Position numbers and translations under genes: made by a program. Of a stretch of DNA of 64,000 nucleotides, positions 7,101 to 51,318 are shown in pieces (position 1 is the first letter of the stretch; every line of letters starts with the position of its first letter). The notes below the pieces were generated by a model that was given only the letters and a program-made list of their open reading frames with translations, was not told the origin of the DNA and did not search any database. This stretch comes from Xestospongia muta (Eukaryota; Porifera; Demospongiae; Haplosclerida; Petrosiidae): NCBI GenBank assembly GCA_963693285.1, contig OY848918.1, forward strand, positions 20,471,484 to 20,535,483. Reading direction: 5' to 3'.

Positions 7101-10100
7101 AATGCTCCCAAAAGTGTGAATCAAGAAATTCAATTATAACTGAAGAAAATGTAATCATCAGAAAATGCAAATTTCTTTTCTTTATCTAGGATGGCAATAC
7201 TCCATTGATGTTAGCATGTCTGGGAGGACACCAGTCAATAGCAATGACTCTATTAGAGAAAGGAGCTGATAGGCAATTAGCTAATAAAGTTAGTTAATGA
7301 ACAAAATACTTTGGATCACAGTAACAGTAACATCCCAAATCAGAATAAGGACAATGCATACACCTATTAATATTATAAAATAATTTAATTATAACAAACA
7401 ACTTATCATGTGTGAACAGTGAAGTTATACAAGCTTGTATTAGTGAATGAAACTTACAAAATATATTAACCATATATGTTTTATTATTAGAATGGAGAGA
7501 CAGCTTTGACAATAGCAGATAAAAAGGCTAAGGATGTACATAAAAAGCTTGTTGATGAAATTGATCATAACAGTAAGTATAACAATCTTGAAAATGATAA
7601 TGATTTTGAAGTTACTTTTGTTCCTTTAGACAAGGATATTTTATTGCAAGCTCTTGAAGAAGGCTATGTCATCTTAAAGATTATAAAATTGTTATTAGCT
7701 GGTCCTCCTGCTGTCGGTAAGACCTCTTTTAAACACCTACTCTTTAACTGGGAGCCACCACATCATCATCATAGTACAGCCATTGCTGATCGACCTATTA
7801 GAGCTGTTGAAAGAGTAGCCACTCTTGAGGGTGCAAATAGTTGGGAAATGATCACAACAGAAGAGCTTATGCAAATGTTAGCTGAAGACATTCATATTCA
7901 AGCAAAGGGTTCAAGGCCTATACTAGAAACCCAATCTTCAAGTACATCTAAAACAGCATCTTTAAACATCAAGAGTTTGGAAATGAAAGATACGCCACAA
8001 CCCACTAACCACTCCATAGCTCAAGATTTGCCATCACTCTCTTTAGATTCAAGTATTGAATATAATAACACAGATGTTATATTTCATTCGAAAGCAAATC
8101 TAGATCAAAGTTCAAAGACAAAGACAATGTCCAGTGAATACACACAGCCTAAGAAATTGGGCCATTTAGAACAGAAAAGAAAAGAAATGGTGAAAGTTGA
8201 AAATCAGTCCAATCAACCATTACAAGATTCTCAATCTGTTGAAAGTGATGTTGATGTTCCTAAGGTAGCTAAGAAGGAAAATATTCTACAACTCTCTAAA
8301 GATATTCTCACTGCAATGAGAAATGCAGGATCTCAACAGCTGTCCAAATCTACCTGGATATATGTACTTGATAGTGGTGGGCAGCCACAATTTGCCGATG
8401 TATCTAGAGCATTTGTACGTCGCAATACAGTCATTGTGATTGTACACAAATTGACAGATCGACTGTCAAGTAAGCCAATCTTTCAGTATTCTATTGATGG
8501 TAAGCCATTAACCCAACCTAAAGAGCTTAGAATGACCAATCTTCAGCTGATTACAACATACGTGCGTTCTATCTCATCAGCTAAACTAGCAGCAGTTGAT
8601 GGTGCAGAGAGTGAGTCATTGCCTACATTCCTCATCATTGGTACCTATGAAGACAAAATGAGAGGTCTGGGAAAGTTGTTTCGTGAGTCATTAAAGAAAA
8701 AGAATGCACAACTTATAGCAGCTTTGCAACAATACAAAGATCAATTGATATTCTATAATGAATCAGAGCAAGAGCTTATCTTCCCTGTTGATAATATGTG
8801 CCTGAAAAATCGTGAAGATCTCTCATGTCTTGTTAGAACATACGTTATTGGCCGTAAGAAAGCAGTTATAAAGAAGAAAGTCCCTATACGTTGGTATGTT
8901 TTGGAGTCTAATATTAAAGAAGAAGGAGAGAAAAATGATCATGGTATTGTATCTCAAACTCAATGTCAAGACATTGGTCAGACACTAGAAATGACTAAGA
9001 CTCAAATACAAGGAGCTATTGCATTTTTCAAATCTCTCTCTGTTTTTCTACACTTTAACACTTGCTCTCACCTTGTTTTTACAAATCCACAATATTTCTT
9101 AGATGCACTTTCCAATATCATTCGTATATCATTCGTTGATTTCCCACAAAAACTACTACAGAAGGGAAAGATTTTGCCACCAAATGCTCACCGCCGACTT
9201 CAAGAAGAAGGCTTGTTTACAATTGATCTTCTAGATCTCGTATCTATTCAATTTGCACCAGGTCTTTTTGAAAAAGCTGACCTATTACGCTTGCTATGTG
9301 ACCTCTGTATTGTACCTGAAGTACATCGTGATGAGTCCACATATTACTTTATTCCAACTGCTTTATCTCCTAAACATCTAACCACTAACAAAAAGAAAAT
9401 ATTTGCCAAAACATGTGATCCATTGGTTTTATCTTTTGAACATGGAGTTGTACCTCAGGTAAGAACAATATGAAACATTCAATCTGTCATATTTTTGTTT
9501 TCTTAGGGTTTATTTCCAGCTGCAGTTGTGGCATTGTTAAATCGTAAAGAACGTCCGTTCTTCACACTCGAGTGTCTTAATCCACAATTTCCTTGTCAAC
9601 TCAGATTTGCTGTTAAATTGCAGTCTTCCAAACCTCGTGGATCATTACTTTTAGTTGACACAATGCTATGGATGGAAATCTATTGGACTGGTGATCCAGC
9701 TGAATGCTCCACTCTTCGTTCTCTAGTTACTGTTGCCATTGACTCCTGTGCTGAACCTTTAGCTTATCGTCCATCTGCTCTGAAGTGTGATTCTGGCACT
9801 CTCTGTAACCTGAAACATCAAGCTCAACAAGATATGCCTCCTGTACATGTAGCACTTGTTACTGTTAACAAAAGAAAGGAAGTTAAAGTGTCTTGTACTA
9901 TACAAGACTTGCCACCAGTGGAGTTGAGTAAAATGTTTCAGCCATGGATGGAAGGATTTGGTGAGTCATTTTATTTTTAGAATCTTTTACTTTATTCAAC
10001 TTTTTATATATTTAGAGAAGGAAGATGTTAGTAAAGACAATAATAGTACCACTATTTTACAAGTACAACCTAAGTCAAGTTAGTTAATATCCATTCAATT

Positions 10101-25900: not shown

Positions 25901-28900
25901 TATAGCAGCTTTGCAACAATACAAAGATCAATTGATATTCTATAATGAAACAGAGCAAGAGCTCATCTTCCCTGTTGATAATATGTGCCTAAAAATTGTC
26001 AAAATCTCTCATCTCTTGTTAGAACATACGTTATTGGCCGTAAGAAAGCAGTTATAAAGAAGAAAGTCCCTATTCGTTGGTATGTTTTGGAGTCTAATAT
26101 TAAAGAAGAAGGTGAGAAAGGTAATCATGGTATTGTATCTCAAACTCGATGTCAAGACATTGGTCAGACACTAGAAATGACTAAGACTCAAATACAAGGA
26201 GCTATTGCATTTTTCAAATCTCTCTCCGTTTTTCTACACTTTAACACTTGCTCTCACCTCGTTTTTACAAATCCACAATATTTCTTAGATGCACTTTCCA
26301 ATATCATTCGTATATCATTCGTTGATTTCCCACAAAAACTACTACAGAAAGGAAAGATTTTGCAACCAAATGCTCACCGCCGACTTCAAGAAGAAGGCTT
26401 GTTTACAATAGATCTTCTAGATCTCATATCTATTCAATTTGCACCAGGTCTTTTTGAAAAAGCTGACCTATTACGCTTGCTATGTGACCTCTGTACTGTA
26501 GCTAAAGTACATCGTGATGAATCCACATATTACTTTATTCCAACTGCTTTATCTCCTAAACAGCTAACCACTAACGAAAAGAAAAAAAATTGCCAAAACA
26601 TGTGATCCATTGGTTTTATCTTTTGAACATGGAGTTGTACCTCAGGTAAGAACAGTCTGAAACATTCATTCTGTCATAATTCTTGTTTCCTTAGGGTCTA
26701 TTTCCAGCTGCAGTTGTAACATTGTTAAATCGTAAAGAAAGTCCGTTCTTCACACTCGAGTGTCTTAATCCACAATTTCCTTGTCAACTCAGATTTGCTG
26801 TTAAATTGCAGTCTTCCAAACCTCGTGGATCATTACTTTTAGTTGACACAATGCTATGGATGGAAATCTATTGGACTGGTGATCCAGCTGAATGCTCCAC
26901 TCTGCGTTCTCTAGTTACTGCTGCCATTGACTCCTGTGCTGAACCTTTAGCTTATCATCCTTCTGCTCTGAAGTGTGATCCTGGCACTCTCTGTAACCTC
27001 AAACATCAAGCTCAACAAGATATGCCTCCTGTTCATGTAGCACTTGTTACTGTTAACAAAAGAAAGGAAGTTAAAGTGTCTTGTACTATACAAGACTTGC
27101 CACCAGTGGAGTTGAGTAAAATGTTTCAGCCATGGATGGAAGGATTTGGTGAGTCATTTTATTTTTAGAATCTTTTACTTTATTCAACTTTTTATATATT
27201 TAGAGAAGGAAGATGTTAGTAAAGACAATAATAGTACCCCTATTTTACAAGAGCAACCTAAGTCAAGTTAGTTAATATCCATTCAATTTTAGCTACAAAT
27301 AGTCTTTATGTAAACTAAAAAGGAAGTCTGTTTTAATTGACTGTTTATATTCACTCTAGACAATCAAGGCACTGATATAGATATAAAAAGTACATCATCA
27401 GTACTGCCGTTGGTACCTCCCAAAAGTGAAGGTATAATTAAGGAATGTTTTTGGAGCATATTAACTTCTTTTCACTTTTATTTGTTTTTTGACTTCTCAG
27501 CCAATAAACCAGAGAAACATATTCTACTTAGGTTTCTTTCTTCTGTTACTACAAAGTGGCAAGAGATTGGAAATTTACTTGGAGTTGACTCTGATACTAT
27601 TGAGATGTTGTATAATTGTAATATCTCCGACGAAATGAAGATGTCAAAAATGCTGCAGAGCTGGTTAGATAATGAGCCTACTCCAGTGACATGGGATCAT
27701 TTCATTAGTGTCATTGAGGGTGAGTCATTTTATTTTTTATACTATTTGACTTAATTTGATGTTTATTGACTTAGATAAGGAACATGTTAGTAAAGGCAAT
27801 GACAGTACCACTATTTTGCAAGAACAACCAAATTCAGGTTAGTTAATGCTCACTCAAATATATAGCAACAAATAGTTTTTAGAGTAAACTAAAGTTGTCA
27901 TCTGTTTTAATTGACTGTTCATATTCATTCTAGACAATAATGACACTGATATTGATATAGAATGTTCAACATCAGTACTGCCATCTTTACCTGCTAAAAT
28001 TGAAGGTATATGCTTTTCTTTTATATATTGCTATTAAATGTGATCTGAGAGAGATGAGTGTAGTAATAATGTCAATTATCCTTACTTAACACCACATTTA
28101 GTCAATAGTCATATAACATGTTGTATATGTATAAATAACATTTTGATGCATAAGCATAAGATCTGTATAACAGAGAATCAAAGATTGCTCCATGTTCCAC
28201 ACTTGTCTAAGGGAAGTTGATAGTATTAATATTGATTAAATTAAGAGGTGTGGCAAACGAGGCAATTGATCTGATATCTACATCGTCTTGATCTACTATT
28301 GCTAAGAGATCATGATTTTCTGTGAATTGTCTCTAGACATTAACACAATAAGAACAGAATGAATGGTAGTTCTGTGTATCTCTATGGTATTTAGCCTGTC
28401 ACTATACACATGACATACATAGCATCTTTAGTTTTAAGCACTTGAACACATCATGCAATTAATAGTTATATAATAATTAATATTAAGTTAGTGGCTTCAC
28501 ATGATGTTTTCAGTATTATTAATTATATTAATTACCCATAATAATGCTTCTTTACAATATGTTCTAATTTAGAGCATATTTATTTCATTACATTAATAGT
28601 ATTTTTACTTCACAGTCAACAAACCAGAGAAACGTATTCTACTTAGGTTTCTTTCTTCTGTTACTGCAAAATGGCAAGAGATTGGAGATCTACTTGGAGT
28701 TGACCCTAATACTATTGAGGGGTTTGTGTCATTCTAATTACTCTGACCAAGTGAAGATATCCAAGATGTTACAGAGCTGGTTGGATAATGAACCTAGTCC
28801 AGTGACATGGGGTAATGTTATTAGTATTCTAGATGGTCCTCTTCAGAAGAAATCAATTGCTATTGAAATCACTCAATTCCTTATCAAGGAATCAGGTATG

Positions 28901-35925: not shown

Positions 35926-39686
<3,761 letters not shown>

Positions 39687-42600
39687 TCAAGATTCAAGAA
39701 GGTTTTGACTAGTAGTAGATGAAAGTGGCAAAACGGGACTGTCAGGAATAGGTTTAAAAGTGTAGTCATCAGCTTGTTCTCTGAGGACAGATGCAGGAGT
39801 TGACTAAAAAAACAAAGAAATGTGTACATGTTATTGCAGGATGGTTTCATAAGTAAGAATTTAATAAATGAACTGAGTTATTGATACCAAAACTATTTGC
39901 AGAGTCTATACTTTTATTAAAACATGTTCATTGTCTTTGAATTCAATAGTTATTTATAGAGTTCACAAATATGTAAGAGATGTTTAGGGCTTCCTTGCAC
40001 ACAGAAAATGTCAAGTAAAAATAATAGATTGGTAGTATTGTACATTTACAGTTACAGTAACTAATATTGGTATGTAGATATTATTTACTAACCTGTGACA
40101 CTCTTTTCTTTAGCTCTTGTAATTTATCCATTGGAACTGCTACAACATTGTTTGGATCTATTGAGAGATGTCTTTTTGCATGGACTTTAGCACGCCATGC
40201 ATTAGCAATGTTTGCTGAAGAATAATTAACAACAGCAGGATTACTAATGGATTCATGTCTGTCCTGATCATCTTCTTTACTACTTATTCGAGCCATAGCA
40301 TTCTCTACAATTGAAACTATACGTGGCTGGTTATCTTCTTTTAGTTTACTGGTTACTTTTGCAGAGACATCTTTAAATGTTAACCTGCGTTTTTTACTAT
40401 CAGTTTCACTAGAGTTTATAAGCTCTTCCGTTCTCTCTTTTACAACCTCTTGTGTAGCTTTGACATGTGAATTAAAGTCTTCTAGCCTTTCCTTAAGACT
40501 GGTCCTTCGAGTTGATGTTGGTGAGGCACTTTCTGTTTTTTTAATGTTGTCCAAAAGGTTAGGGAAATTTGTTCCAAATGTTTGAGTATGTTTTCCTGGT
40601 TTGTAAACCATGTGCTGTTGTCCTTCTTGTAGAAACAAACTCTTCACTATTTTTTGACCTCTTTGTGTTCTGAGATCATGTTGTTTTGAACGACTTATTT
40701 TGTGGATTCGTTTGTTATTTCTCTCTTGTTCTTCCGTCAAGTCTTCAATACTTTCAGTTTCATCTTCATCATGTATTGACTCTAATTCAATTGCTTCATC
40801 TGATTTGTTCTGAATATCTTCATCAGCAAAATTAGTATGTCGAATATCATCATGTAGTGACACTTGATCAGATATCTTTTTCTCTGCCAATGGACTTAAT
40901 TCAGTGGCCTTCAGTGACTCAATAAAGACATTATCTTGTGCTTGATCATATGATTGAAATAGTTCATCCTTCTCACTAGATTCCTCCTGATATTCATCAT
41001 CATTATCAAGTTCACCACATACATTACTCTCTTGTTCCAAGTCAGTAAATTGAGAATTTTTTTCATCTTCTGACATAAAGTCATTATCATTTGATCTGTT
41101 GAGGTAAAATAATAATACACTTAAAATCTGCAAAAAAGCTTTGTTATAATACTTATATGCATAAATTAATATATTAGTAGAGTAGTTATATAAAAGATAA
41201 TACATATGAGTGTGTACCTGATTAATCCTCTTATTTTATATTTAGTAGTAGTATGTCTTAACCAGTTACATGATACTGCTAATATCAAATACACTAAAGT
41301 CATAAAAAGGAGTACCTAGAGAATGTAAGTCACAATAATAAATAGGGTCTATGTTACAATTGAATTTGTGCTGGTCAATTAAAAAAGGACAATCATACCA
41401 GTATATTTGTGTATGACATAATCAAATAAAGATCACCAATGAACATTGATAAGGTAAATTTAATGTCTACTTTAAGTATAAGATATCCCTATAATGACCT
41501 TATAATACTTATATAATTATTATTAACTTACAGCTATATTCACATAAGGTCGAACATCATCAAAGTTATATGCCTGAAGGATATAATCACCAGATGAAAG
41601 ATAACACTCTACTTCTGATTCTCCTGTAGTACACTTTGCTTTAAAGCCAGTGAGAAGGAATGAAGCTGAGGCAGAGAAGCCATAATAGTTAGGATTAATA
41701 TAAAAGAGCCAACGATACCTATAACATTAATAGAATACAATTTATATGTATATCATTGTATAATGTTAACAATACTAAACTATTATGTCTTAACATAGTA
41801 CATCTGTACATTTGATAATATATAGATAGACTCACACCCAGGGAGTATCATCACGAGGAATAAAGAAACCACTTGTGAATCCTGCTACACTAGATATGAT
41901 GGGTGACAGACGAAATGCATATGAGGGTAAAGATAAGATAATAAAAATGAGAAGAGAAATCCAAGTTTGATTGAGAGCCATAGCTACAACAACTAGTTGA
42001 AGAAAGACAGTAGCACTCCAGTATGTCATATTAACAAGCTATAAATATAATAATAATTAGTCATGTTAAACAATAATAACTATGTTAGTGACTCAATTAT
42101 ATATTTTGTAAACTTTCTTACCAGTAGGTACAAAACAAGAGCACAAAGGACAACAGGTATGGTTGCCATGGTAACAAAACGAAAGAAGCCTTGACAGATT
42201 AGGTCATGTGATCTACCAGCGCCATCAGCTTTTTCAAACCCATACACCTATACAAAGTATTGTATCAATACATATACATTCATGTATATACATTTGGTTC
42301 AAAGGATCTATATATATACATTGTATAAGTAAGTTCATGTATGTATATTAGGTTGAATTGAATCACAAAGGCAACCATACACATACTTAATATAGATGCA
42401 TCATATCAAATTAACTTCCTGGAAATACATTATTTACATTATATATAGAGTAAGCATTATAAATTATGCTTCAACAACATGTACACTTGTTATTGAATCC
42501 TGTCATTACTTGTAATGCCTTCAGATAGTAGTTTTGTAGGACTGGGAACATAAACAAAGCACTAGCCACTGAATAGACACAAAATCCAGACATGATTAAA

Positions 42601-44216
42601 ATGGGAGTGTCCTGTTGAAAATAGACTGTTCCTAAAGCACAAAGGAAAAGATGTCATTGAACATTAAATTGATATATCTATTAAATAAAATGTTATACTT
42701 AAAATATCTAATTACAGTTAAAGTTTATACAGTCATTCACCTAACAATAGTCCGTAGGCAAAGAATATAATAGGTAAATATAACCCCCACACAATAGTAG
42801 TTCGTTTACTAGCTCTAGCCTCAAGAACAGACCAACGAGTGAACCAGTTTGCTTGAGGTTGTCGCCTATCCTTGTTTTTATTACTAGCATGAACGTTTCT
42901 GTGTGTGAGTATGTGTATGAGAGAAAAACGAGAGAAAGAAAGAGGAAAAGGAAAGTCTTAAAATGTATATACATAGCAATAATATCTTACAGAGGTAAAG
43001 TAGAGGAAGTTCTGATGTATAAAGGATTTTTTTGCTGTCTATCAAGAGTTTGTATAGACATACTTTCAAAGTCCTTTACACGAGCACATTTTATAGCCCA
43101 CTTTATTAAATCTTGTTCAGTTGAATTCTGAAAGGAAACAGTCACTATTATATATACATTTTCACATACAATCCCTCTATTTTTGAAGTAACAATGCATA
43201 TCAGTAGGCAGTGTAGATATCCTTGCAATTGTGTACTATATTACACTGAGTCTTATGGTTGTATTTTGTATTAGCATACCTGATAATGTTCTAATATGAT
43301 TTCTCTCATCCATGGTTTGCCCAACATATCCATAATGACATCTGTAGAACAATATTAATAACATTCTTCTATATAAAGTTGCTTTATTGATGTAAAAAAT
43401 TAATGCTATGATTATAAATTGTGATGTAGGTTTATGGCACAACAATTATATTAAGTAACATTAATATTGACAACAAAAGTAATGCAAGGCATACATAGAT
43501 TATTAAACAAGTGACATTATTACCTGCTGGGTTGTGTTCTTCAAGTTGAGGTAGTATGAGACCTCGTTTAAGAAATTCATTCATTAAAGCCTCAACAAAG
43601 AAACTGTATGCTTTCTGGGGTACTCCATGATAAGCTACATTACCATCACTGAGTAAAATCAGTTTATGAAACATGTAAAATATCTCAAATCGTGGCTGAT
43701 GTATTGTGAGAACAACAGTTCTATTGGAATAAGCAAGACGGTTTAAGTGACTGAGCAGTTCAATTGATGCAGTAGCATCAAGACCTATGATAAATAAATA
43801 TATATTATAATAATATTACATATTACATATTGTATATGGACCTATTTATAAAAGGACTGCTGAAATTCCTTAGATAACCTGTAAATATCAGGTTAGCTAT
43901 ATATAATATACTACAACACATAAATTTATTAATATGATTATGAAGTAAAGTTATTAACTATTGACAATTAATTCTTTGTTAATTATATTCATGGAGTTTA
44001 TTTACATTTCCTGTATCAACTAATAACATTTATATTTTTTGTAACAATTAATGACATTAATTTGTACTGGTTATGTAACAAGGAAAGTGTCACCTCAACA
44101 TTAATACACTTAACAAGTGTGCCAATATTGCTATGCTGTTAATTTAAAATAAAATAAAATTTTATGATACATCTATTAATTATATGTGAATTAACATGTA
44201 TATACTTGGGGTTAAC

Positions 44217-44255
<39 letters not shown>

Positions 44256-47200
44256 TATTATAATCTATAATTTACATGTACATACATGTCTATAAGGAGG
44301 AATACTTGTCTTTGTTATAATATATCTTACCTGATGTTGGTTCATCTAAAAAGATGACCTTAGGCATTGTGAGTAGTTGTAATGCAATCACTAATCTCCT
44401 TTTTTGTCCACCACTAAGTCCAGGTCCAGAAGCCCCACCTACTTTTGTGTCTTGGACTGAATGGAGACCAGTCTAAAGAAAACAATGACATTCAGAAGTA
44501 CATGTAATGTATATTATATTGTACAGGTACTGTATGTATATATAAATTAACACTTGAATGAATTGAAACTTAACAATTCATACATGCAAATACACACCAT
44601 GAACATGAAGTCTATATTTTATATGTATATACATGTTGATAATTCCATTATACTATATGTGTTGTACATGTATAATTATATAATATACCACTTCCATAAC
44701 TTGTTCTACTCTCTCAAATTTCTGTCTCCAAGTCATTTTATCAGGTAATTTCATGTGAGCAGCCAAAGTTAAGTTCTCTCTACAAATTAGTGTTCATTAT
44801 AATGTCATCTCAAGTTACATACTCACCTAACAGTAAGTTCTTCATAATAAGGTGTGGCTAACTGTAAAACATATCCAGTGTTAGCTATATACTTTTGTCG
44901 TACTTTATCCAATGAATGTCCATTAACATATATCTCACCCTATAGACATACATGTACAATATTAAGTATCTTTTAAACAGTTAATTACTGATATGTTGCC
45001 AGTTTTTCGTCTTCCAGTAAGCAAATCTAAAAATGTTGTCTTCCCACATCCTAAAAAATGTAACAATCATATGATGTTATATAAGAATTGATAAATAAAA
45101 TCATGTAATAAGTCCATAACATAACATTGATATTGCTATATACCACATACATGTACATGACATGATGGTAACATTAAAGTCAAATAATAAACATGCATTT
45201 TGTCATGTGATAGTCACCTGATGGTCCCATGATACAAACAAGTTCTCCTGGATTAAAATAGAGTGATATTCCATGTAGAATCTCGTTATGTACTCGACCA
45301 CACCCACGATAACCAGGAATAGGTTAAGTCTATAGAGGAATATCACATATACATGTATATACACAGACTACTTGTCATATATATGTAGTATTTGGAACAC
45401 TTGTACATGTATGTACATGTATGTTTAAGGTTTACCTGAGCTTCAAATTTATTATCAGTGTTATCATAACTAAAATAACTTGGCCGCTTTGACACTAAAC
45501 CTGAAGTCACTGATATATCCATCTAATAGAATAAAAGCATGTATATATGTATGTGTACATTTTACTCAATAGGATTAGTGACATATACATGTAATATAGA
45601 ATGTTATTATATATGTATGTTTTTTCATTCTGTACCTTATCGGTTTCTTGTGATATTTCAGTATGTGATGGCTGTACACTTTCTTCAAAACAAGATACAG
45701 ATTTCAAATGTAGTGTAGACGGGTTATCAGATGTATTAAGCTACAAAATGTCACATATTATGTACAAAACAATAAAGTAATCAGACTCTCTATACTGGTA
45801 TTTTTCTTAAGTACTGTACTATAACACTGCAGTTCAGTCCAATATGGTAGAGAACAGTATGTATCATTAGAAGTAAGTACTCTTACAATACCTTTAATGT
45901 ATATACTTTCATAATCTTCTACAGTACTACTTACTTTAAATAAGCATTTGCTTTTGTGAGCAGAAGGGATGGAGCCTACGCCAAATTTAGTTCTGCTACC
46001 AAGTTTTGTTACAGAGCCTTTGCTATCTTTAAGCATCCATGCTTTAGATGTACTATGTTCACTTTGAGAGGATACTTTACTCTCATTATGACTTAAAGAC
46101 ACTGGAACATGTTCAAAATCAAATACTATATATAATGAAATATAGTTGTTATCAATGTACATGTTGCACATGTAACTGTACATGTTGTACATGTGAATAT
46201 ACTGTTATTATAATTGACATAAAAATGTACATATCTAAAAAGCAAAGCAATCATCATTACTACATCATGATACATGACTACATCTACATACTTATATGTC
46301 ACTGTCATTACAATATACAGTGTACATGTACATTATAACACACACTATAGACAGTATGAGTACATACCAACAGAGGGTGTGGTGACAGGATCACCTTTTT
46401 GACATGGCTCCTCATCTTCATTCTCTTCAATAACCTCCTCATCAATTATTGATGGTTGAGATGGACGACGAAAGTTTTTCAAGACATTTGGTGTAGCTAT
46501 TTAAGGAATATACTTATCATGTGACTACTATATAATGATCACATGACTTACATGTGCTAGAACAAGGTCTTAAGAGGAACTGAGCAGTCCAATCTGTAGG
46601 TCCACGTATTGTGCTTTTTGATTTCCTATGATACATAGCACTATGAGACCTATTAAACGCTAAAGAAGAAAAGACATTTGTTAATAAAATCTATGAACTG
46701 TTAGTCCACATATCCATCTATTTATCTGTGTATCTCTTGTTGTCAATCTGTCTGTTCATTTATTAATATGTCTGTAGTCTATCTCTATATATGCCATTAA
46801 TCTATCCATCCATCCATATAATCATTTGGTTTAATAGGTGCATTGTTTTCTATTTCATCTTCAGATTCTTGAATATTATCCTCTAAAACAAAAGATACAG
46901 TGGTAGTATCTGTTTTCTCATCTTTTTCCTTCTTAGGATAAATGTCAACACTGTACTTTAAATCAATACAAGCAACAGAGACAGCCTCTTCTAAACCACA
47001 TACTGGAAACTACAGAAGACAAAAATTGCACATATTTGTACTTGTATACATGTATTACTAAAACATGTACAGTATATATGACATATACATGTAAATGTAC
47101 TAGCAAATAATGCAATAGTCAATATTTTATGATACAATAAGCATGACAAAAACCAAAACAGGAAAATTTTTAAAATAATAATTATTAATCTGATAGAGGG

Positions 47201-49686
47201 TCATACCTGTGGGACACCAATCTGTTTCTTCTCTTCTAAAGACACTCGTTCCAAGTACAAGCGTTGTCGAACAAATAAGATAATTTCCCAGATATAAAAT
47301 ATGATCTAAAGACAGAAACAGACTGACTACTAATAATGACAATATAAAGAAGTGATATCAATACATTATACAAATTATGTACATGAACAACCACATGTAC
47401 AGTTGTGAATTAAAGTTAACAATATAACAGTCACTTAATACATGTAGATTTCATTGGTAACAATAAAAATGCAATACAAACACCTTCTCACAAATTCCAA
47501 CCAAACATCTCTCTTCCTTTTCATATACTTTCCTTCCCATATCACATCACTATTAGTACTATTATATGTCATATTAAATAGACTTACCTTTACAATAATA
47601 GAAAAGACAGTAATTGAGACAACAACAACAATGACACTGATTTTAACCCAATCATAATCTAACTCTCCCTTAATAGAACTGAAGTCTAACTTATCAGGAC
47701 AGAATTGGTTACAATGAATTGAATAACAAGTATCTCTGAATTCTAAGTTATCCGCAATATATTGACATCTGTACCACATGGAAATAGCATCTTGGATAGT
47801 CAAAGCCTAAAGTAGAAGACATGAGCAATAGAGCAAAATGATTGTTGAAGCCTGGCTAATCTACTTAATACTATTTAGTAGGGATACTTGTGCTGTAATG
47901 ACTAGTGATTCAGTATATTGCTTAATCAGCAATTTCACTCCATGCTTTTTTTTCTCCGGTCTGTATATAGCAAACATTATTTATTTTTATATGTCGGCCT
48001 CGCTTGCTCTCTGTTGTGTTCTCTAAGTAGCATACTATATTGTCTAACTTGTCTTTCTACCTCTTTTTTATTTCTCATTCTCATTTTTACTTGCTTCTCC
48101 AAGATATACTCTATTATCTCTTCACAATCTCTGTCTCCAGTTATGCTCTGTAGCTAAGGCACTTTTTCTCACAACATAGACTATTATTACATCAATATTC
48201 TTTTCAATACAACATATGTAGTTTGTATTGTACATTTATAAACTTTTAAACAGCATTAATTCTATTACTAAAGCACGGCGGCAATATTCTTAACTCAGTT
48301 ATAATTGAGATGTGACAATTTGATTTAACACATTCCAATTGCATTCAATTAGTGACATATATATGTGTTGTACATCTTAGGAACTTACATCAGCTGGATT
48401 ACATGATTTTGTATTAGCCACCTGTTCACTTGATGTGCTTCCAGAAAAGTAATATGAAGACCACACCCCACTTTTTATAGTATGACTATATTAAGAATAG
48501 ATAGTTTATTTATATTAATATGAATAACTTTTACTATTATTACATTGATCCTGTTTCCATCATATAATTAATCAAATATTATTATTATTACTATTGTTAT
48601 TAATTAATCTCGCTGTGCGTGGGTGCATAGCTAGGGGTTACTGTAGTCTGTCAGTGTTGTCTGTATGTGTGTCTGTTGTCCGGGCAAATGGCTTTGAGCT
48701 GCTTTAATTCGGCAAACAGGCACTGGTAGCCACCAAACTATAGTGGTTGGTAGCAAAACGTATGTACTTTTTAAGAATACTGCCAAAAAAGCGTCAAACG
48801 AACAAAAAGCTTTAAAAGTCTGAAAAACATTTGAAAAAAAGCACAGCTTTCAGTGAAGACTCGAGAATTCAATAAAAACCTCTTGCATACAGTTTATGAC
48901 ATGTGTGAGAAGTTTTGCAAAATTACCTCTTTGGAAAGTTATGATAGTTTTACTAACTTTTGGCAGTTTTCTTTGTAGATACATTGAGTGCGAACTAAAA
49001 ATACCAGCACCATAGCTGTCATTGGAGAATCACTAACTTTTACTAAGAAGTTGGAAAGCATTGGACCTTTTGTCAATTAGCGTGCAAAGTACCCAGTAGA
49101 CCCAGCGCATTTTAAAAGCTTTTCTCCCTCTGATTGAAGAGAAATTCTGAGTCATCAATAGTCATCTTGCGCATCACGTGAGATATACTTGTCTGGATAC
49201 GTCATTAGAGAATGCTAAAAACAATAAAGAAATTTGCTTGGTAGTGCCTTATGGTCAATTAGTTTACAAATTGGCCATTAAGTTGACTATTTTCAGAGTA
49301 AAGCTGAGTCATTAATAATTAACCATACTTTTAAGCTTGTGGAATGTTAAGTGTACATGCACTCTGCACTCTGCTGTATAGATCTACACTGCTCACCACA
49401 GCCAGTTTAAGCACTTTAGTGCATTATTATAAGATATATTACGTGAGATATTCTTGTCTGGTATACGTCACTTGAGAATGCTAAAAACAATAAAGAATTT
49501 TCTTGGTAGTGCCATATGGTCAATTAGTTCACAAATTGGCCAGTAAGTTGACTATTGTCGGAGTAAAGCTGAGCCATTAATAATTAACCATACTTTTAAG
49601 CTTGTGGAATGTTAAGTGTACATGCACTCTGTACTCTGCTGTATAGATCTACACTGCCCACCACAGCGAGGCAAAGCACTTAAGTG

Positions 49687-49748
<62 letters not shown>

Positions 49749-51318
49749 GGTAGCTATAACAGGCAAAATTCATGAAGCTCATACTTGTACATACAAATAT
49801 ATGTGTAAAAAATAATGGTGCATATATAGATTCTATGTACATGTACATGCACTAGAACATTAGGTAAATAATATTAAGACAAAAGTAGTAGAATTCAATC
49901 TAATTACTATAATAATTAATGGAGCAGTATACAATACTATGAAAATATCACAATTATATAATAATTTATAATCTAACTTACATAAACGACCCCCTCAAAT
50001 TGCCAATATCTTGTGTTATTTCTTCATTTGATATACCAGACAAAATCCCATCAGAATCAAATAGACTTGAAGTAGCAAAATAAATATGTTGCAAACACTC
50101 AGTCACTATAAAACTTAATAATGGTACAGTTTTTGATATAGCAATACTAGAATTCATGACGCCTCCATATTCAGCTACTATGAACAGAAACTCTAATCCT
50201 AAACTTGGTTGTATGCTATCTCCCTGGTACTGTCCTGGAATTACGCTATTAGCAATGCTGTCTGCTAGGAGGTATACATCATAAAGGCTAAAGAGTGTTA
50301 TAATGGGTATTTCACCTCTTGGGAAGTAATCTGGGCTAGATAATACACAGTAGATACTGAGGCAACATGGGGAGCCTTGGGTTGTATCAGAGCACTGAGG
50401 ACTAGTTGAGATGATAGTAAGTAAATCCTTTGTTGATTTGATGTTGGTAGGTATGTTCATTGTATCATCTTCATCCTTAACTGTGCCATTAAATCTACGA
50501 TAAATATTGTTACGAAAGTTAACAAACCATGATGAGTCAGCGATTATACTTATATCGGTTATATTATTGAGCTTTTCGTAAACCCATTTTGCATTGTTGA
50601 CCACACCTAGACCTCCTGCACTGGAGCCAGCAAGAATCAGATCTGTGGCATCAGACAACCCATTAACCATTAGTTCATTAATAATGCTACGAAATATGAC
50701 TGATCCTCTGAACGTGAATTGCAAAGTTGGACTTTCTGGTTTGTAAACTTTGTCTAAGAAGTCTGACTGAGGGTTACCTGATTCATTGATATTAGGTACT
50801 TCTCTGGTATCATTTCCAAGCCACATATCACTGCTGCAGTAAGGGATAATGACATGATTATAATCATAAAATGAAGGGTTATTCTCCTTCTTTGAGTCCA
50901 CAATATCTCTACCTACTATGTTCTTTAGTACTTCATTATCTTTAATAAACGTGCTCATGGAAGTCATGTATGGATTAAGCCTGACACTCAAATTTCTGTT
51001 TTTAGTAGCAGTCCAAGCCACAGTGAGGTTGAATTGAGGATAAAAATTGTCTAATAGTGTTTCTTGGCTAGTAGCAAACTCTTTTCTAACTTTAGAATTT
51101 AAGAATCGTCTGTTACAAGTTTCTGGTGAGTAGCAAAGTCCACCACTTTCCAGAAAGACCAGCCATTTACTGGAGGAATTTGTTTTCTCTATGAAATACC
51201 CTGGTCTGGAAAAGTCGTTGCAAAGAGCTGCTTTATCTCGGACAGTGGTCCACGTCAAGGCTGCCTCAGTTATGAAGAGAGGCAGGAATAAATAGAAAGT
51301 TAAGACATTGTAAGTCAT
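39687..51318 (-). CDS. Notum/pectin-acetylesterase-like ectodomain fused to an ABCG transporter
   Basis: Exons (high to low): 49982-51318, 48389-48485, 47588-47806, 47207-47305, about 46860-47009 (3' edge unresolved), 46552-46659, 46368-46496, 45935-46125, 45636-45740, 45436-45522, 45218-45329, 44989-45050, 44827-44939, 44689-44779, 44331-44472, 43524-43784, 43280-43341, 42991-43127, 42741-42898, 42510-42631, 42122-42247, 41836-42038, 41532-41718, 41218-41315, 40093-41095, 39687-39803. All other junctions are GT-AG and in phase. The start ATG 51318 gives a signal peptide. The hydrolase has GSSAGG (nucleophile Ser), LYDVYLL (candidate Asp), CLQHI (candidate His) and a Notum-like HCNQFCP end. 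A membrane helix follows ([17 protein letters not shown]), then the ATPase: [39 protein letters not shown] membrane helices include [11 protein letters not shown]. The roughly 370-residue tail is charged. An in-frame TAA lies at 45324-45326. About 1,800 residues. Confidence 0.8.
44219..44255. repeat. (TA)n microsatellite in a transporter intron
   Basis: About 37 bases of alternating T and A between the exons 43524-43784 and 44331-44472. Confidence 0.95.
48608..49748 (+). mobile_element. Hairpin-ended dispersed element, copy B, with internal 265-bp duplication and ATT tail
   Basis: It starts CTCGCTGTGCGTGGG with a GCATAGCTAGGG counterpart, like copy A, then a TG-rich run. Its 3' half is duplicated in tandem: 'gtgagatat' near 49178 recurs near 49443 and 'gatctacactgc' near 49380 recurs near 49647 (265-bp period). 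The first unit ends in CACAGCCAG plus GCACTTTAGTGC, the second in CACAGCGAGG plus the hairpin GCACTTAAGTGC, followed by about 60 bases of ATT repeat. It lies in the intron between the first two exons of the transporter gene. Confidence 0.7.

Follow-up and report, generated by a model that had tools for sequence, protein, structure and literature searches.

A Notum-type hydrolase joined to an ABCG half-transporter in a gene family of sponges and other non-bilaterian animals

Results and Discussion

The 64,000-nucleotide stretch of Xestospongia muta DNA analyzed here, hereafter the window, includes a minus-strand gene that belongs to a family in which a pectin acetylesterase (PAE)/Notum-type hydrolase, a single membrane helix and an ABCG half-transporter follow one another in one chain. 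Computation directly yielded the chain with its domains and catalytic motifs, the paralogues in the same genome, and the occurrence of this architecture in several non-bilaterian animals; it also revealed two lesions in the window copy. As a whole, the family can be considered to consist of single chains with an extracellular or lumenal Notum/PAE serine hydrolase, one helix and a White/ABCG half-transporter that carry out an export-and-cut reaction on an esterified lipid, a reading that we judge to stand at about even chances of being correct.

Organization of the gene in the window

The window gene has 25 exons that run from 51318 to 39687 (Table 1), as determined by reading all frames and by alignment with two close paralogues from the same genome, par188 (locus C2:18.84M) and par189 (C2:18.96M), which were used for exon placement. 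Exon 1 is a single long open frame of 445 codons that was matched by the Pfam PAE profile PF03283 (E-value 4.8e-37, 128.3 bits against a cut-off of 26.6) and that includes the catalytic triad Ser233, Asp347, and His411. The proposal of the earlier note that splice phases link the hydrolase to the transporter was borne out, as phase-0 GT-AG introns join exons 3, 4, and 5, and so was its reading of a Notum-like cysteine end and a single membrane helix, both of which lie in exon 3. The signal peptide that it had also proposed stood in part: a hydropathy scan flagged a hydrophobic N terminus in four of six proteins, and left it unflagged in par188 and in the Ephydatia protein P0001. The same scan supported the single helix of par188, found four transporter segments rather than six, and placed one false segment within the hydrolase.

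Table 1. Exons and lesions of the fusion gene in the window.
Feature	Position	Strand	Content
Exon 1	49982..51318	-	Likely signal peptide (hydrophobic N terminus), then almost the whole PAE/Notum-type alpha/beta hydrolase
Exon 2	48389..48485	-	End of the hydrolase domain; AG/GT in window, par188, and par189
Exon 3	47588..47806	-	Notum-like cysteine end and single membrane helix
Exon 4	47207..47305	-	Juxtamembrane segment; phase 0 on both sides, AG/GT
Exon 5	46826..47009	-	First beta strand of the ABCG ATPase and start of the cytosolic insert
Exons 6-10	45436..46659	-	Linker on the cytosolic side, forming an insert behind beta strand 1; AG/GT in window, par188, and par189
Exons 6-10 singly	46659-46552, 46496-46368, 46125-45935, 45740-45636, 45522-45436	-	
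Exon 11	45218..45329	-	Start of the ATPase core, as far as GPS of Walker A
Exons 12-18	42991..45050	-	Remaining ATPase: Walker A GCGKTT, LSGGQ, LDEPTSGLD, TIHQPR
Exons 19-23	41532..42898	-	ABC2 membrane domain
Exon 24	40093..41127	-	Last hydrophobic segment, then a long, charged tail in the cytosol; open frame 384 aa long
Exon 25	39687..39803	-	C-terminal end; stop codon 39689-39687
Lesion 1	46824..46825	-	Exon-5 donor AT in window; GT in par188 and par189
Lesion 2	45324..45326	-	In-frame TAA, codon 854, second codon of exon 11

The transporter half has the organization of the ABCG/White half-transporters, the ATPase preceding the ABC2_membrane domain (par188) and the fold being of the ABCG type. 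The ABCG alignment of the Geodia homologue begins at the beta strand encoded by exon 5. TIGR00955 was the best NCBIfam match of P0138, P0009, and P0012, at 264-314 bits, which does not reach the curated cut-off of 736. The whole-length structure of the Geodia protein P0002 (pLDDT 58.5, pTM 0.45) was dropped as a guide to domain placement; fold comparison of this protein gave good coverage at residues 526-1187 only.

Intron 1 of the window gene contains a 224-base direct repeat (49218-49441 and 49483-49706, 89% identical, spacing 265), perhaps a mobile element, and par188 has different DNA across much of this intron. Elsewhere in the window there are a CT microsatellite, about 180 bases long, on the downstream side of the fusion gene (38560-38739), and on the plus strand two near-copies of one protein, one of them partial (7491-9473 and 25982-26605), with a weak, sub-threshold match to COR-A (Roc-COR).

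Lesions in the window copy

Two lesions, neither of which is mentioned in the earlier note, affect the window copy (Table 1). Past the lost donor of exon 5 the frame reaches a stop shortly after, and in the window copy there is no GT between that donor and the next stop. Exon 11 begins with ACT TAA where par188 and par189 have ACT CAA; codon 854 is therefore a stop. If splicing is standard, the product would end after the hydrolase, the membrane helix, and a short tail, with 654 amino acids when exon 5 is read through. Most likely, then, to judge from the sequence, the window copy no longer makes the fusion and would make at most a membrane-tethered hydrolase. The earlier note had presented this locus as one gene for a Notum-like hydrolase and an ABCG transporter; its domain order, coordinates, strand, and ends hold, and for the family a Notum-type hydrolase tethered to a complete ABCG half-transporter is supported, but a working single gene was not confirmed for this copy, given the AT donor and the TAA.

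The copy could still be functional if both lesions were assembly errors, represented a rare allele, or were bypassed by cryptic splicing. In favor of this, dN/dS between the window and par188 is still low in the hydrolase (0.28) and the ABC portion (0.21), the linker and tail having values of 0.48 and 0.56, and an in-phase AG within the sequence AACGAG of exon 11 is a candidate acceptor that could skip the TAA. We find a functional copy improbable, however, since the lesions are two and separate from each other, the stop behind the lost donor has no GT before it, and the close paralogue par189 is likewise damaged. Because dN/dS is still low, any decay of the window copy is recent.

Paralogues in the same genome

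A search of the genome with the PF03283 profile produced 19 matches that were grouped into eight loci. At six of them tblastn matched the window exons for the membrane helix, the ATPase, and the membrane domain downstream of the PAE match and with their order unchanged; these are the window gene, par188, par189, the tandem pair at C2:13.82M and C2:13.83M (par138A and par138B, collectively par138A/B), and C2:15.13M (par15). The PAE regions of the tandem pair are about 50% identical to that of the window and exon 2 was matched in both, while par15 is the most distant (36% identity), with no tblastn match to exon 2 and the tail undetected. The domain searches called for in the earlier note found PAE in window exon 1 and, in par188, PAE together with ABC_tran (residues 871-1026, E-value 1e-28) and ABC2_membrane (1203-1401, E-value 1.8e-11). 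The par188 frame is open across 1,942 codons with AG and GT at the internal exon ends and a far C-terminal end that is not fixed; its exon limits were initially carried over from the window gene, and its own protein served as query in the later check, which is therefore partly circular. The third close copy, par189, lacks 40 bases in exon 19 and a single base in each of exons 1 and 24.

The ratio dN/dS between par188 and par138A was 0.14 in the hydrolase and 0.09 in ATPase exons 12-16, with dS saturated, and between par138A and par138B it was 0.43 in the hydrolase and 0.14 in the ATPase. In the hydrolase exons the members of the tandem pair hardly differ (dS 0.04), and in ATPase exons 12-16 they have diverged (dS 0.51), a pattern that gene conversion of one half could have left. 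Their linkers allow more than one reading: par138A has 20 open GT-AG paths, the longest with 72 codons from exon 5, and par138B has five, of which those printed lack part of beta strand 1.

The remaining two PAE loci, C5:3.65M and C5:3.9M, encode pectin acetylesterases that we take to be plant-type and carry the motif GCSAGG; tblastn over the 12.5 and 15.0 kb around them (about 8 and 10 kb of it downstream) detected no window ABC exon. A genome search with PF01061 gave five matches and none at the fusion loci, where tblastn did detect the membrane domain; the blank is probably due to the splitting of this domain into short exons. Matches to the wnt family were found at three loci of this genome (contigs C8, C11, and C13).

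Distribution among animals

In precomputed Pfam lists, in a search covering 5.8 billion proteins, at least 39 protein clusters pair PAE with an ABC domain. Database hits with both numbered 16 of 49, 13 of 98, and 33 of the best 120 of 175 in overlapping sets, about 8,000 candidates having been scored in each search. The recurrence of the exon order at six loci and these clusters indicate that the fusion is more than a chance event. PAE, ABC_tran, and ABC2_membrane are all listed in 16 of the 39 clusters, and many others are short predictions, about 580-830 amino acids long, that end in or near the ATPase; when 15 clusters were rescanned with Pfam, PAE and ABC_tran passed in all 15 and ABC2_membrane in seven. 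The clusters do not correspond to 39 genes, as P0001, P0003, P0013, and P0015 are all Ephydatia models and P0143 and P0144 are two isoforms.

The sponges in which the fusion was found are Ephydatia muelleri, Geodia barretti, Oopsacas minuta (P0009, a full-length fusion), Oscarella lobularis, Corticium candelabrum, and the source of scpid protein P0014, presumably a Sycon (class Calcarea). The other named animals are the ctenophore Bolinopsis microptera, whose model ends within the membrane domain, and the stony corals Oculina patagonica, Montipora capricornis, and Porites evermanni, the last without an ABC2_membrane match. The check suggested in the earlier note, a search for the architecture in other sponges and choanoflagellates, thus recovered it in other sponges and also in a ctenophore and corals; no fusion from a named choanoflagellate, bilaterian, or placozoan was among the matches listed from the approximately 8,000 candidates scored per search. 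P0001, P0002, and P0004 are among the closest database matches to the fusions of this genome. A very divergent protein of 1128 amino acids, P0148, has PAE and ABC_tran above the cut-offs and a sub-threshold ABC2_membrane match (22.6 against 26.9 bits), and on account of these domains the fusion may extend beyond the named animal groups.

The databases label some members by their ABC half, such as ABC transporter G family member 8 (Geodia) and member 22 (P0014), which may be the reason why the hydrolase has been overlooked. In agreement with the earlier note, which knew of no described protein of this kind, a multi-term full-text search, with coverage of few subscription journals and preprints, returned no paper on a pairing of Notum or pectinacetylesterase with ABC or ABCG, nor on sponge or ctenophore ABCG fusions.

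Catalytic and ATPase motifs

Motifs were aligned for 30 of the 39 clusters (P0005, P0007, P0008, P0010, P0011, P0013, P0015, P0144, and P0150 were left out). The Ser-Asp-His triad is present in 28 of the 30 database rows as well as in the window, par188, par138A/B, and par15. All 12 rows from named animals have a complete triad, and nine of them also have intact Walker A, LSGGQ, Walker B, and H-loop motifs; the ATPase motifs of Porites are interrupted, perhaps in a broken gene model. A second coral form, Oculina P0141 and Montipora P0143, keeps the triad and has lost LSGGQ (NLTELQ and NLTKLQ instead), and the divergent fusions P0156 and P0157 have the whole triad replaced and keep the ATPase motifs. 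To judge from these residues, there may be lineages in which hydrolysis and transport are not coupled. The fold search with the window hydrolase printed Notum in all 50 rows.

PMC8172013 gives the catalytic residues of Notum and reports that the amide of Trp128 contributes to the oxyanion hole and that its side chain makes contact with inhibitor. A tryptophan occupies this place in all six Notum rows, in none of the 29 database fusion rows that cover it, and in none of the five rows from this genome.

Phylogeny of the PAE domain

The PAE tree has 40 rows and was rooted arbitrarily; it leaves several deep forks open, and long branches were flagged in it. Relative to the motif table, eight rows were dropped (near-duplicates, a fragment, and the X-containing window row), and six NOTUMs and one C5 PAE were added. 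The 12 bilaterian Notums group together (91/81; 100/98 when the long-branched C5 PAE is included) without any fusion row. A clade with weak support (81/83) unites 21 fusion rows, and within it the glass sponge and demosponge rows unite with par15, par188, and par138A/B (96/99), the coral rows with one another (100/99), and the homoscleromorph rows likewise (100/97). P0146, P0154, P0155, P0148, P0156, and P0157 fall outside this clade in an order that is not fixed, and the fusions may thus not be a single clade separate from Notum. The tree fits one old fusion that would have been inherited by the lineages that carry it. As the Notum group has fusion rows on several of its sides, it is even conceivable that the stand-alone Wnt deacylase Notum arose from a fused ancestor by loss of the pump.

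Comparison with known proteins and alternative interpretations

NOTUM, the palmitoleoyl-protein carboxylesterase, is secreted and stands alone (PMC8172013), whereas the fusions run on into a membrane helix and an ABCG portion. They also differ from NOTUM in the absence of Trp128 and in their place outside the NOTUM group of the tree. With respect to the half-transporters ABCG2, ABCG1, and TIGR00955, the fusions add an N-terminal ectodomain and a helix, so that a membrane span precedes the ATPase; they further differ from ABCG/White half-transporters in the insert after beta strand 1 and, in par188 and the window, in a long C-terminal tail. PF03283 is common to the fusions and the two C5 PAEs, and the GCSAGG and GGGWC motifs of the latter differ.

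Could neighboring genes have been wrongly joined, both in the earlier reading and by annotation pipelines? Linker conservation is poor and linker splicing in par138B and par15 is ambiguous, but the cysteine end and the membrane helix share exon 3, the predicted proteins P0051 and P0052 are unbroken from the hydrolase into Walker A, and the contigs of P0004 and P0005 (1464 and 1574 amino acids), with 4550 and 5377 bases, contain little besides the coding sequence, which suggests cDNA. Such a misjoin is hardly credible, and we reject it on the agreement of six loci and several animal lineages. An ectodomain that acts solely as a cap, binding or regulating for the transporter, would suit P0156 and P0157, in which the triad is gone; retention of the triad in the remaining 28 of the 30 database rows makes this very unlikely.

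The Notum-type fold and triad on which the earlier note had built a link to Wnt were recovered, and the connection to Wnt itself was weakened. If the protein were a membrane-tethered Wnt deacylase whose ABCG half regulates or exports something unrelated, the fold, the triad, and the three wnt loci of this genome would be accounted for. Against it, Oopsacas minuta has a full-length fusion, although its genome is reported to lack wntless, wnt, and dishevelled (PMC10280926, PMC5684314); Trp128 is replaced in every covering database row; and the bilaterian Notum group contains no fusion PAE. We therefore regard this reading as distinctly unlikely and disfavor Wnt deacylation as the core role; a side role in Wnt may exist in this genome, with its three loci. 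Somewhat less unlikely, and still doubtful, is a pectin-acetylesterase-like ectodomain that deacylates polysaccharides or glycolipids of food or symbionts, the pump handling the products. Membership in the PAE family speaks for it, and fusion-bearing animals include filter feeders and symbiont hosts. It is at odds with the unanimous Notum matches of the fold search and with motifs unlike those of both plant-type PAEs of the same genome, and animal ABCG proteins move mostly lipids and drugs.

Proposed function

The export-and-cut reading is the one that we prefer. The predicted topology, with its hydrophobic N terminus, one helix, and cytosolic ATPase, would put the hydrolase outside. By analogy with other half-size ABCG proteins the chain may form a dimer, in which two hydrolase domains would sit above the external opening of the pump. 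An esterified lipid, or a molecule resembling one, would be carried by the pump to the outer leaflet, where the hydrolase on its tether would cut the ester, the product being trapped or released. The substrate need not be Wnt, and ester hydrolysis may be coupled to lipid transport, as the earlier note proposed. More tentatively, and with more doubt than conviction, we propose that this is an ancient export-and-cut machine, already present in the animal ancestor or earlier, in which the ABCG pump presents an acyl-ester lipid to the Notum-type hydrolase for a Wnt-independent lipid task, and which was kept in sponges, ctenophores, and corals and lost or unseen in bilaterians.

The finding places the Notum family of enzymes, known for turning Wnt off, in one chain with a family of lipid pumps, and provides an easily scored gene architecture for the comparison of non-bilaterian animals. 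As the fusion is kept in an animal reported to be without Wnt, a Wnt-independent role of Notum-like hydrolases becomes testable.
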